Below, one piece after another: positions 57,211 through 63,688 of a DNA stretch of 64,000 nucleotides. The stretch's first letter is position 1. Every line of letters starts with the position of its first letter. Origin of the DNA: Rhizoclosmatium globosum (Eukaryota > Chytridiomycota > Chytridiomycetes > Chytridiales > Chytriomycetaceae); NCBI GenBank assembly GCA_002104985.1, contig MCGO01000006.1, positions 496,001 through 560,000 of the forward strand, in the 5' to 3' direction. The notes beneath the pieces were generated by a model. That model did no database searches, had not been told where the DNA came from, and saw only the letters and a list, made by a program, of their open reading frames with translations. The translations under genes and the position numbers were made by a program.

Positions 57211-57730
57211 GGTTGCCAATCATGTGATTTCTTGCCCAAACACCCTCCTAAGGTTCCCTTTCGCATTTTTAATGTTTCATTAACGACACAACTAAATTGT
57301 GAAAGAATTACAAAACATCATTGCATCGTTGAAAGTTGTCAAGAAAAGTAACCACTTCTACATTTATTCTAAATACATGTCTGTTCCAAATATTACAATC
57401 ACTACTGTTCGTGATTTACAACAACTCTTCGAACGGCAGATCGTTCACGACGACGACTATTCCCATTCCCACCATCTTGTCCATATTGTCCGTAGTCTTG
57501 TTCAGTATATTGGGCTTGCTGCTTTGGGAATCCTGGACGTCCTCCTCGAGTTTGCGCCGCTGGTTGAGAATCTGTGAACGGATTTTGTGGTGCATCGTAA
57601 TTCTGACCATAAGCAGTCTGTTGATTTTGCCATTGATTCTGAGCTTGTCCTCGAGGAGCCCCAACATATTGTGGTTGTTGTCCATATTCTTGTGGATAGC
57701 CACCTGATACTGCATTCGTTTGGATAGGAA

Positions 57731-57735
57731 CAAAC
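57731..57735 (+). repeat. Target-site duplication CAAAC, left copy
   Basis: CAAAC directly precedes the left LTR and recurs directly after the right LTR. Because the LTR ends also match at one base, a 4-bp duplication CAAA is formally possible. Confidence 0.85.
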
Positions 57736-57826
57736 CGTTAACCGTTATATGATATTATTTATTATTTACTATATATATTGTGTTGGTGTATTATGAATAG
57801 AATTAATTCTTTCCCTCAATCTCTTG
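57736..57826 (+). repeat. 5' LTR of the copia element, 91 bp
   Basis: AT-rich direct repeat from CGTTAACCG to CAATCTCTTG. I find no difference from the copy at 62473-62563. It lacks the usual TG...CA ends. Its length is at the very low end for LTRs. Confidence 0.9.
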
Positions 57827-57868
57827 CGTTATCAGCACCAAGCAACCCAAACCCCTCAAACACCAACG

Positions 57869-60800
57869 ATGCTAGCCACGTACGGCCAACCAAAGGAGTC
57901 TCAGAAACTCAGCCAATCAAACTACGCGACCTACTTCCTGAAGTGGCTTGAAGAAATCAAAAAGACTCTCGGCAACCTCGGCCTCCCCTCCGGCTCAGCC
58001 CTCTACCAAGTCACCCCCCTCGCACCTGACTCAGTACCAATCAACTCCCTCGTCATGTTTCTCAATGTCGACATCATCCCTGTCTCGAAAGCGCGCGTGT
58101 ATGGAACTGAGTTGGTTGCAGGTGCCACCCTCAAAACTGTCAAAGACCCCACCTTCGAACAGGAAATGAAGTACAACGGCATTGTCGCGCACTACGAAAC
58201 AGCAAAAAGCCGTGTCTGGGGAACCATCAAAGATTTCACAGACGACACGCTCTTCACCATCTTCAAAAACTCAGCCGGACCAAAACAAAACATCGTCGAT
58301 GGAATTGTCGCCCTTCAAAAACATTGTCAAATCTCTCACCAATCAAACATCAATGCAGCTAAAAATACTCTTCAATCTCTACGCCTCGCTCCAAACAAAC
58401 ATCCCCTCACTCTCCTCCAAAATATTCAAACCCAAATCCTCATTCTTGCAGACCTCGGGTACCCTGACTCAACAAACCTATCGCTATGCACTGAATTCAA
58501 TCTGTCTAACATCAACAATTTCTTCACTGGACTTACCGACGATGACCTTGCACGCTCAATGACTGCGCTCATCTACTCAAAGGCGAAGAAGGACCCTCTT
58601 GATTTTGCCGAAGTATTGAGCATTGTTGCAGAAGACGAACTTGGGTCACGTGGTCGAACAGCGCACAAGGATCTCTTTGGAACTGGAAATGGTCGTTCGT
58701 TTGTTGCCAAGGATGTCGCATCTCTCGAGGAACAAATTGCGGCTCTGACTAGAGCGTTTGCTGCCACCCGCCATGTCAGCCACAATCCAGTGAGCACTGT
58801 TGACTCTCTCAAGCTCTTTGTTGTTGGTTTCCCAGAAGGCACTACCTCTGAATTGCTTCGCGCCCATTTCAAAGGATGTGTCCGAGTTGACGTTGTGAAG
58901 TCGAAGAACACGGGAAAATCAATTGCCTTCATCAACTACGACAACGCCTCAGCCGCAACTGCTGCCTTGAATACACCCTTAACTTTTGAACAATCTCAAA
59001 TTGTTATTCGTCGTGCATTCAATAAAGCTTCTACCGCTTACCCTTTGACAGTCCCTATTGCAGCAAAACAAGTATTGTACAAACCAAAGCCTATTATTGC
59101 ATACCTTGATTCCGGTTCAGAAAAACATTTAACCCGCTTTGATGACCTTCTACTTAACAAATCAAAATGCAAGCCATCAAGAATACAGGGCATTGCACCC
59201 GATGCTGTCATAGTGGGAAGTGGGATTCAGGGTGATTTGAAAATTGAAGACTCCAGTTTGACTCTCAAAGATGTGGAACATGTGCCATTTTCTACAGAAA
59301 CACTTGTGTCAATATGGAAGCTCCTGTGCGAAAAATTGGACGTATTCTTTGATCACCAAACAATGACTGCATATGTTGGTAAAATGAAGGATGGTGTGTT
59401 CAATGTTACTGCTCGTGCAAAAGGCGTGGACGGCCTCTTTCACCTTACTCTTGACTCTCCAACCACTCAACACCAGCTTGACCATGATCCAAGTATCAAA
59501 GCCTTGCTTGGTACAACATTTCCCCGTGTCACACTACGGACATGGCATGAAAGGTTTATGCACGCGGGCATTGATCAAATTTTGAAAACAGTTCCTGCTG
59601 TCCATGGTCTCTCATTTGCTGGGTCAGACAAAGAGTTCTTCTGTGAGACGTGTGTTATGGCCAAAATGCCCAGACTCCCCTACAACAAATCTGGATGGAC
59701 TGCCAGCAACCTTCTTGACACTCTCATTATTGATGTATTCTTTCCAGAAAAGGGAAACCCCTCTCGAGATGGTCATACGTGTATGCTGGGTGTCATGGTT
59801 CCATCTATTCACTTCAAAATTTGTTATGGACTGTTCAACCACACTGCGAAAGAAGTTGTTAAATTCTTGAAACTGGCTATTGCGTATCTTGAATCATTCT
59901 CCACTGAAAAAGTCCAAAATATCAGAATGGATCCATCAGGAGAAGCAGAAAGCAAATTGATGCATGAAGCATGTGCTGAACTGTCGAAGACTCTCCAAAT
60001 TACATGTACAGATGCACACAACCAGGATGGGCACTTAAACGGGTACTTTAAAGTCATGATGGAAAGAGTCCGCGCAAACATTATTCAAACAGGAAAGCCA
60101 ATGGATTTCTGGCTGAATGGCGCACTCTATCATACCTTTGTTGACAACCGTACTATGCACGGAAACAAAACAAAAACCCCAGTTGAACTGCTCACTGGAA
60201 AGAAGCCACAAGTAAAACATTGGAGAACCCTCAACTGTGTTGCCTATCCACGTATCCTCCCAAAACATATCAAAATCACTGATGAGAATATTGATAAACC
60301 AGGAATCTACTGGAAACTGGACCTCGCGCTGTGCGAAGTACATTTATTGGTTATGGTAATTATGATGGTCACCCGGTTCAACGTATGGGATGGATGTTCC
60401 TCACAGAAGACGGAAGAACCATCTACTCACGTGATGGGTATTTCTATGAAACATGTTTCCAATTTGAGGACATTCAAGGAAAGCAACACGAATTGATTCC
60501 GGCTGTTCGGTGGGCCGATCATCATGATGATTCTGCAGACGAAGACTATATTACTATGCCATTGGAATGCTCAATTGAAACACTTGAAGAAGCTGCGACA
60601 AATAGTGACATCTTGATTCCTACCCCTGTACCTTTAAAAACCCCATCAACCCCTCCCCCCACTGAATCCCTCTGTGAAGAATTCTTCACTCCATCGTCCA
60701 CCCCTACACAGTATGAATCTGATGGAGAATATATCCCCACAACACCAACCCCTACCTCAGAGTTACCAACAAGGAGATCAACCCGAAATACAATACAAGC

Positions 60801-62478
60801 TCAGCATTATGACTCTGCCACTGGAAAATATTACTCTCTTGTATCGCGTAAGGCTGAAATTACAGTGACGGAAGCTCTCAAAAGTGCTGAATGGATTGCT
60901 GCCTTTGGAAAACACCACAAGAAACTCGACAATGCGAATGCCTATCAGTTTAAACTCAAGTCAGAGGCTACTAGTCCTATTGTGAACTTGTTCTATGCCC
61001 TTACTGAAAAGCAAGAAGAAGACTCTGGTGTCTTTGAACCATATGTGCGAGCCATTGCAGACGGAAGTTCGCAAAAGCTGTGTGATGTTGGCCAAGTGTA
61101 TGTTACAACCCCAGACGTGGAAACCAACAAGATCTTTTCCATCCATGTCACCCAGAGAGGTATGAATACACGAAAGGTTGATGTCAATGGCGCTTTCCTC
61201 CAAACACCAAACAACCCAGACCGACCAGTCTTTACGTATATTCCAGAAGGATTCCCACTTTCAGAAGGAGTCTCTCGTCATACTCACTGTATTCAATGGT
61301 TGAAAGTCATCAATGGACAACGCGACGGATCCTTCCTATTTGCAAACCATCGAGATGGACTATTCCGTGAATATGGTTTTGTCCAATGCCCCTCAAGCCC
61401 AGCACTGTGGATCAAACAACTGACAGATACTGAACATGAGAAGATTCTCTTCATGGAGTGGTTTGCAGACGACGGCGAATTAGCACATGACCCCGATTGT
61501 CTTGCAGAAGCAGACAAATTCCTTGCCTGGTTGAATGAACGACTTCCGATAACCATCAAAGATATTGTGGGCACTATTATTGGATGCCGAAAGACTTACA
61601 CTGAAGGATGCTTTGATATGGATCAAGAAGCCTATATTCTGGACTCCTGCCTTCCCTACCAGACAAACAAGCTCATTAAAAACAAAACTCCATGGAACAA
61701 CGGGCTAGATATGAAGGAATTTGACAACGTAGAAACTGAGTCTGACGTGTCAATGAACGGAATACCATACCAAGAAGCTTTTGGCACCCTCCTAACTCTA
61801 CACAAAACCCGTGCCGATATTCTATACACTCTCAGTAAACTTGGACAACATGTTAAAAACCCGCAGCAAATTCACTGGAAAGCCCTTCAACATTTGTTAG
61901 GATACTTGAATCGAACCAGTGGAAAAGTTCAACGATTTAGAAAGTCTCAAGATGGCATTGTCAAGTTGATTGGATACACGGATGCTGACTTCGCTGCTGA
62001 CAACAACACCCGAAAATCGCGAACTGGAATTGTTGCCTCAATAGCTCAGGGAACAGTATCTGCCTCATCAAAACTCCAAAAAACAGTAGCAGACTCAACT
62101 GTTGCAGCTGAAACAACTGCAGCTGTCTCTGGATCAAATGTCTTCATCTACCTCAACAACATTCTGAAATGGCTTGGGTACAATGACCCTAACCCAACTG
62201 ACCACTACTGTGACAACCTACAATCAGTCACAAACGTTATCGAAGGATCTGGGCGACACAGAACACGACACCTGGATCTACAGTACATGGTTCTGAAGGA
62301 CAGGCACCAAAACAAAATCATCAGCTTCAAATGGTGTGGAACAGACAGCAACAAATCAGATATTATGACAAAACCCCTACGCTTTGTGAAACATGAACGT
62401 GCCATTATGGAATTGGGAATTGTGGACCGGGACTCAAAACAAAATACCACTTCAGCCCTCTTTGCCAAAGTCCGTTAA
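57869..62478 (+). CDS. Copia Gag-Pol polyprotein with RRM, one-base break between integrase and RT
   Basis: About 1,536 residues if the break near 60334-60338 is ignored. The Gag part runs to about residue 310. An RRM follows at 58805-59020: LKLFVVGF (RNP2), helix, KSIAFINYD (RNP1), helix, IVIRRAF; no CCHC knuckle is seen. The protease has AYLDSGSEKHLT. The pre-integrase zinc domain shows TWHERFMHAG and FFCETCVMAK. In the integrase core the first Asp is in LIIDVFF and the second in RMDPSGEAES; the residue 36 positions later, where Glu is expected, is Asn (60038-60040). RT has RKVDVNGAFL and FADD (61462-61473). RNase H has GYTDADFAADNNTRKSRTG, SSKLQKTVADST and HYCDN. TAA 62476-62478 lies inside the right LTR. 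The ATG at 57869 is the first in frame. Confidence 0.92.
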
Positions 62479-62563
62479 CCGTTATATGATATTATTTATT
62501 ATTTACTATATATATTGTGTTGGTGTATTATGAATAGAATTAATTCTTTCCCTCAATCTCTTG
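62473..62563 (+). repeat. 3' LTR of the copia element, 91 bp
   Basis: The partner of the left LTR, with no visible difference. The polyprotein stop codon is formed by its first bases (CGT TAA). Confidence 0.9.
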
Positions 62564-62568
62564 CAAAC
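62564..62568 (+). repeat. Target-site duplication CAAAC, right copy
   Basis: Directly follows the right LTR and matches 57731-57735. Confidence 0.85.
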
Positions 62569-63688
62569 TTGCCATCAGCATCTCGCATTGCAGCTGGAGC
62601 CGCTGGAATTGGTTGCGGCTTCCGCATTGGAATTCCATCAGCATCGTCATTGAGCATAACATGAGGATTTCCCCCTCCTCTATTTCTCTTAGTCTTGATT
62701 CGCACGCAATAGCAAATACCAAGTGCAACAAGTATCAAAAGCAGAAGAATACTGCCTCCGACTATTGCTGCCAGTGGAAACGTAGATGACTGCGAGTCTG
62801 CAGGCACAGAAATTGAAGTTGTCGCAACTGAAGACGTGGCTGCTGTCGTAATTGCTACAGCTTTAGTCGTGACATTCGAATTTGTGGCACTTGCTGTGGC
62901 AACGGCTGACGTAGTCACTGCCGGGGGACCAGGATTGTTGACCGGGTTTGGTGCAGGCAATGGTGGCCAACTAGTTGGGCAACCGGTTTTTTGTGCTCCG
63001 ATGTTGATCTTAGTACTTGGAGATGATCCAGTTAAGCAGTTTCCTTGGAACTCGCCAACCTGCAAAATAGTCCAAGACGAGAGTCCCGCTGGAATAGATC
63101 CAATAAAGAAGTTGTCTTGAATGTGAAAGTACTGCATACTGATCATCCCAGCGAAAGATGGAGGGATGGGTCCGTTAAAGTGATTTCCCTGCAAGTGCCT
63201 TGTACATGATCTTAGTATTGATTTCGTAGCTGTATATATCTCACATCTCAAAGAGTTGGCTGAAGCCACCAAATGTGTCTGGCAAGGGTCCAGTCATTTC
63301 ACAGTTGTCGAAGAACATGATACGAAGATTGGGCAGTGCTTCGAGTCCCTGAGGAAAGGTACCGCCGAACCATTGGGATGCTTGAGTGCATCCAGCATGA
63401 CTGACGGAGGTCAAACTCAATTAACGCTGATATCGCCAAGAACTCACATCTCGGTGACTCGTCCAGATGCATCACAAACAGCAGGTCCATTTCCACAGCA
63501 ACTAGATCCAAGAGAAAGCTTGAACGCTGCACTGACTATCGCACAGTCTTGGGCAGTGGACATGGGCTGGGTGGAGAATTTTTTTTTGAAAGCCCAATTG
63601 AAGTTCCAAGATTTCCTCTTTGAAAGAAGTTATATCATTTTGATGAAACTTTACTAGTAATACTATGAAACTAATCTAGACTGAATTT

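Follow-up and report, generated by a model that had tools for sequence, protein, structure and literature searches.

The copia-type long terminal repeat (LTR) retrotransposon of 4.83 kb at positions 57736-62563 of the window analyzed here (64,000 nucleotides of the chytrid Rhizoclosmatium globosum, positions 496,001 to 560,000 of contig MCGO01000006.1) raises the question of how a Gag protein without a zinc knuckle would recognize its RNA. Most retroviruses and many LTR elements select their own RNA by means of the zinc knuckle, the CCHC form of which is common but not universal in copia Gag proteins. An earlier note on this DNA proposed that the knuckle is replaced here by an RNA recognition motif (RRM) located in Gag upstream of the protease, a domain acquisition that could define a new copia lineage. 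Analysis of this one genome indicates that the element probably belongs to a distinct Ty1/copia lineage whose Gag lacks the CCHC knuckle and carries in its place a cellular RRM that was captured once and now serves as the nucleocapsid. With somewhat less assurance, we favor the more specific formulation that six families, A to F (the window element is in A), constitute an undescribed copia lineage in which the captured RRM replaced the retroviral-type knuckle as the nucleocapsid and provides folded, sequence-reading recognition of the genome, making this lineage the LTR counterpart of the long interspersed nuclear elements (LINEs) with RRM-containing ORF1 proteins.

Comparison with the Pfam profile RRM_1 and structure prediction both recover an RRM fold in Gag upstream of the protease, in agreement with the earlier note, as do the structural matches. 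The window domain matches RRM_1 with 28.2 bits, above the gathering score, and the alignment ends at position 57 of the 70 profile positions; taken by itself, so modest a match might be attributed to chance resemblance within a helical or linker region. This explanation was rejected and is very improbable, given that the RRM_1 cut-off is exceeded not only in A but in all of six divergent families (28.4 bits in B, 27.6 and 28.8 in C, 24.3 in D, 30.9 in E and 41.5 in F), that the joint RRM profile reaches an E-value of 5.7e-28, and that the predicted structure shows the beta-alpha-beta-beta-alpha-beta fold, with which the fold search agrees. A standard RRM contains the motifs RNP2 and RNP1 with three stacking aromatic residues. 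Here, aromatic residues are found at RNP2 position 2 in five of the six families, at RNP1 position 5 likewise in five, and at RNP1 position 3 in one. Because this set is incomplete, RNA binding via the RRM sheet is plausible, in a form that differs from the textbook RRM. A genome search with the window RRM (E-values up to 10, 13 candidates scored) found no host donor gene, and outside the element copies the sole match in the same genome is C410, with an E-value of 0.75. The viral structure library yielded no match at an E-value of 0.001, the rows being generic RRMs and unrelated structures.

In the window copy, the coding region is interrupted and consists of two frames that overlap (57824-60496 and 60331-62478), which is what one might see if a local insertion or an assembly fault had put a host RRM exon into a single copy. 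This possibility is refuted, and can be considered negligible, by the copies of family A on five other contigs. Eleven places in the genome match the window RRM at an E-value of 0.001, and six of them, the window copy included, make up family A (98-100% identity); on the five other contigs the RRM contains no stops, and the element has an open frame of 1560 residues in three of them (C223, C415 and C29) and shorter frames in the other two (C246 and C389). The remaining matches are a decayed copy on C165 (67% identity) and members of family B (C71 and C371, 53 and 49%) and family C (C45 and C413, 38 and 37%). Relatives identified by their reverse transcriptase (RT), at 30-33% identity, also bear RRMs, namely, family D (C394, C34), family E (C380, C90 and others) and family F (C113). 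In a census of RRM plus protease, family E accounts for 17 full-length matches as well as a split one (C413) and a decayed one (C45), family F for three and a split one (C329), and family D for two; families A to F together with C165 account for at least about 36 RRM-bearing places. The same RRM is thus present in five further copies of family A and, in divergent form, in five more families, and nowhere among these copies is it an insert next to a normal knuckle. No relatives were found in the virus and prokaryote contig collections, a result that says little about other eukaryotes.

The absence of a Cys-His knuckle beside the RRM, also observed in the earlier note, holds for the whole group: the pattern C-x2-C-x3-5-H-x4-5-C, sought in frames of at least 150 residues, occurs in none of the 20 pieces of the RRM lineage (which include RT pieces and multiple copies per family and so are not 20 independent Gag proteins) as against seven of the nine pieces of other copia families. 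For Gag pieces proper, the comparison is between eight from the RRM lineage, all without the pattern, and two ordinary ones, both with it. The nine pieces represent seven families, of which five (H, I, J, K and M) have the pattern and two (G and N) do not. The contrast is softer by Pfam: zf-CCHC is above the cut-off in family H only, and family I matches zf-CCHC_2 below the cut-off, with an E-value of 0.057, J, K and M having no Pfam zinc-knuckle match. Retrotran_gag_2 is above the cut-off in two pieces of J as well as in H.

The RRM families also group together by RT and RNase H, which supports the notion of a domain acquisition that defines a lineage. The RT alignment includes 22 of the 83 RT matches; the first tree has 19 rows, the near-copies A_C29, A_C223 and E_C101 being left out, and places the 11 RRM rows on one side of one branch with support of 97/98. 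In the second tree, of 17 rows, which is restricted to families of known Gag type and so omits G (C13, L048) and N (C124, L063), this branch has support of 100/100. Both trees are unrooted, and two orders of E and F are compatible with the data: E nearest to the knuckle rows, with support of 80/82, and F there instead, a placement that is not rejected (approximately unbiased test, p-AU 0.29). Several separate captures of RRMs, with the rows drawn together by long branches or uneven sampling, would be compatible with the low identity of the RRMs of D, E and F to that of A (15-25% only), with the multiple long branches that meet in the trees, and with the labeling of three of the 11 RRM rows (C385, C413b and C380) through close relatives only, their own Gag lying past the contig end or outside the pieces examined (in the other eight, the RRM is seen in the same copy). 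We nevertheless regard repeated capture as improbable because 96% and 100% of the 200 bootstrap replicates of the first and second tree, respectively, keep the RRM rows together on one side of a single branch, the RRM occupies the same place in Gag across the families, and the RNase H signature V[AT]DST is common to all RRM rows that cover this stretch. It appears more likely that the ancestor of A to F captured the RRM once, from a cellular RNA-binding protein. Since most retroviruses have a knuckle, as do many copia elements, the knuckle would be the ancestral state and would have been lost in this ancestor.

Comparison of C45 and C413, two members of family C, across a stretch of 79 codons spanning most of the RRM reveals 11 silent substitutions and one replacement, i.e., a ratio of nonsynonymous to synonymous rates (dN/dS) of about 0.03; over 452 Gag codons, the same pair has 40 silent substitutions and 13 replacements (dN/dS of 0.09). 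Between families, where silent sites are near-saturated, the dN/dS of the RRM is 0.28 for A-B, 0.31 for A-C and 0.28 for B-C, compared to 0.09 for the capsid part between A and B. Therefore, the RRM is kept: it is maintained by purifying selection, yet it changes faster than the capsid between families.

In the nucleic-acid-binding role of Gag, the RRM would grip the RNA of the element during packaging, while the capsid part builds the particle, and would help to seat the tRNA primer; the protease would subsequently cut Gag. It is also conceivable, although unlikely, that the RRM is real and selected without being the nucleocapsid, binding instead host RNA or protein (for nuclear transport, translation or escape from silencing), with packaging effected by a basic tail or the capsid. 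The knuckle is dispensable in Ty1-type Gags, any knuckles in J, K and M are unusual, the stacking aromatics of the RRM are incomplete, and family E has an Arg/Asp-rich linker ahead of the RRM, all of which would fit such a division of labor. The evidence on the other side comes from position, co-occurrence and charge: the RRM lies between capsid and protease, where the knuckle pattern is located in H and J; its presence coincides with the absence of the knuckle in all six families; and the eight Gag pieces from the RRM lineage have a net charge of no more than 0 to +7. These findings are best compatible with the RRM as the nucleocapsid and suggest that one retrotransposon group changed its RNA-gripping part.

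The putative primer binding site, CGTTATCAGCACC, is located directly 3' of the 5' LTR. Its complement, GGTGCTGATAACG, is identical to the anticodon arm GGTGCTAATAACG of the tRNA-Ile(AAT) of this genome apart from position 34, where it has G. The A form of this motif occurs at 11 places in the genome and the G form at 17. Of seven A-form places checked with ARAGORN, five give a tRNA-Ile(aat) that coincides with the match, and the other two give no call; of ten G-form places traced, nine belong to copies of the families A, B or C and one to the knuckle family I. The putative site is accordingly common to the RRM families A to C and to I (besides the window, it is located at C45:78767, C71:78876, C371:78973, C413:25772 and C235:113401); in family H the motif is present with one mismatch, and in the pieces examined of D, E, F, J, K and M and in L007 it is absent even with up to two mismatches. 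Position 34 of tRNA-Ile(AAT) is normally inosine. Since inosine pairs with the C of CGTTATCAGCACC, the sequence fits priming by the 5' half of an inosine-carrying tRNA-Ile(IAU). Drosophila copia primes with a half-tRNA, according to excerpts of PMC5371799, and no evident report of a retrotransposon primer site for an inosine-bearing tRNA was found in the open-licence literature searched, represented in part by excerpts. A motif shared by E and F upstream of Gag was considered as a possible tRNA-Lys(CTT) site; a pattern built for this tRNA has no match in the genome, so that the assignment is not supported. On C46, at about 295-308 kb (L070-L074), there is a tRNA array of repeats of about 1.7 kb, every one of which contains tRNA-Asp, -Gly, -Ser and -Ile.

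Features of the element in the window, with positions, strand and basis of each assignment
Feature	Position	Strand	Basis
Target site duplication, left (CAAAC)	57731..57735	+	CAAAC at both flanks of the element
5' LTR, 91 bp, ends CGTTAACC...CAATCTCTTG	57736..57826	+	100% identical to 3' LTR
Putative primer binding site CGTTATCAGCACC	57827..57839	+	Complement of tRNA-Ile(AAT) anticodon arm, C opposite A34
Gag, capsid-like N-terminal part	57869..58777	+	Begins at first ATG of the frame; model mainly of helices
RRM of Gag, flanked by capsid and protease; Cys-His knuckle absent	58808..59023	+	Pfam RRM_1, PDB sequence match, predicted fold, structural matches
Protease region: AYLDSG at 59099-59116, then Pol_BBD match	59099..59323	+	PF22936, 20.8 bits, below cut-off of 27
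GAG-pre-integrase, zinc-binding start of integrase	59528..59668	+	PF13976, 25.7 bits, below cut-off of 28.4
Integrase core and C-terminal part	59669..60496	+	Frame broken in window copy within or near overlap 60331-60496
Reverse transcriptase and RNase H	60853..62325	+	Aligned with 21 other RT rows
3' LTR, 91 bp	62473..62563	+	Identical to 5' LTR
Target site duplication, right (CAAAC)	62564..62568	+	Pairs with left CAAAC

The ends of the LTRs are not TG...CA, and the boundaries were fixed from 5-bp duplications in four copies, which differ from copy to copy (CAAAC in the window, GAAAC on C223, CAGTA on C29 and ACTAG on C415). At 91 bp, the LTRs are very short; the 3' LTR contains the stop codon (62476-62478) with which the second frame ends. 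The insertion splits a host-gene frame on the minus strand (57616-57735 and 62564-63272) that is in frame once the flanks are joined; it contains a stretch resembling leucine-rich repeats (LRR_1, 18.7 bits, below the cut-off of 20.6) and an apparent membrane span.

The capsid-like part of the window Gag has no match to a Pfam gag family, and a PDB profile search with it found nothing convincing (three rows, best E-value of 0.068); its counterpart in family D matches the Drosophila Copia capsid (8vvw), and the capsid-part profile weakly matches ordinary copia Gags. For the family A model in VIA-align, the Copia capsid was not among the matches listed, the list being filled by RRMs. GAG-pre-integrase, below its cut-off, precedes RT and RNase H in the polyprotein, so that integrase comes before RT. 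Pfam RVT_2 matches three of the six RTs of the RRM lineage (best E-value of 3.4e-35); the second frame of the window, with its own RT, has no Pfam match, and this RT groups in the trees with the relatives that match RVT_2. A PDB profile search with the RT found nothing.

The third catalytic acid of integrases is the Glu of DDE. A comparison by eye of the corresponding place (60020-60070, NQDGHLNGYFKVMMERV, in the window) shows Asn in families A, B and C and Asp in D, whereas E and F apparently have Glu; the target duplications of family A are clean despite the Asn. Family E contains an in-frame tandem array of a 20-residue unit, NVAAASGVCSPSSPPAKSVS, between integrase and RT, with at least 44 exact units in L046 and at least 12 in L051 (also on C101, at C377:473296-481128 and elsewhere), and its open frames reach 3313 residues. 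In the copia-like family of L048 (C13:93700-98300), the order of domains is unusual: a gag-pre-integrase-like region (below cut-off) and an integrase-like region precede a protease-like DSGCNNHLLP in one frame.

If the RRM is indeed the nucleocapsid, the RNA-selection step of LTR elements can be rebuilt with an unrelated cellular domain, which would parallel the situation in LINE ORF1 proteins with their RRM and CCHC modules. The RRM lineage could then serve as a system for asking what a nucleocapsid minimally requires, and capsid, RRM and protease in one frame provide a simple marker of the lineage for other genomes. In the open-licence literature searched full-text, represented in part by excerpts, no description of an RRM in a copia Gag was found, which is weak evidence of absence.

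Compared to known systems, these elements resemble Ty1/copia elements (Pseudoviridae) with CCHC Gags in the possession of LTRs, the 5-bp duplication, the order protease-integrase-RT-RNase H and the RVT_2 matches of half of the lineage RTs, and differ from them in the replacement of the knuckle by the RRM, in the 91-bp LTRs without TG...CA, and in the window RT frame that RVT_2 does not match. The Gag of yeast Ty1 is likewise of the copia type and devoid of a knuckle; unlike the Gags described here, it has no RRM and relies on a basic chaperone region. An RRM within a retrotransposon is shared with the ORF1 proteins of LINEs (L1, the Jockey superfamily, plant BNR), in which it binds RNA; those are non-LTR elements, whereas here the RRM is within a copia polyprotein, between capsid and protease. 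In the excerpts available of PMC4120745 and PMC5563155, LINE ORF1 types vary in RRM, CCHC, PHD and esterase modules, and the first of these sources holds that both the RRM and the CCHC domains bind and chaperone the transcript; the plant BNR LINEs appear in a reference title in PMC3605345 and PMC5348765. Finally, the capture of chromodomains by chromoviruses, CoDi-I and Chronos (PMC5348765, in the part available) is similar in that a captured cellular domain marks a lineage, and distinct in that the domain is another one and is joined to integrase.
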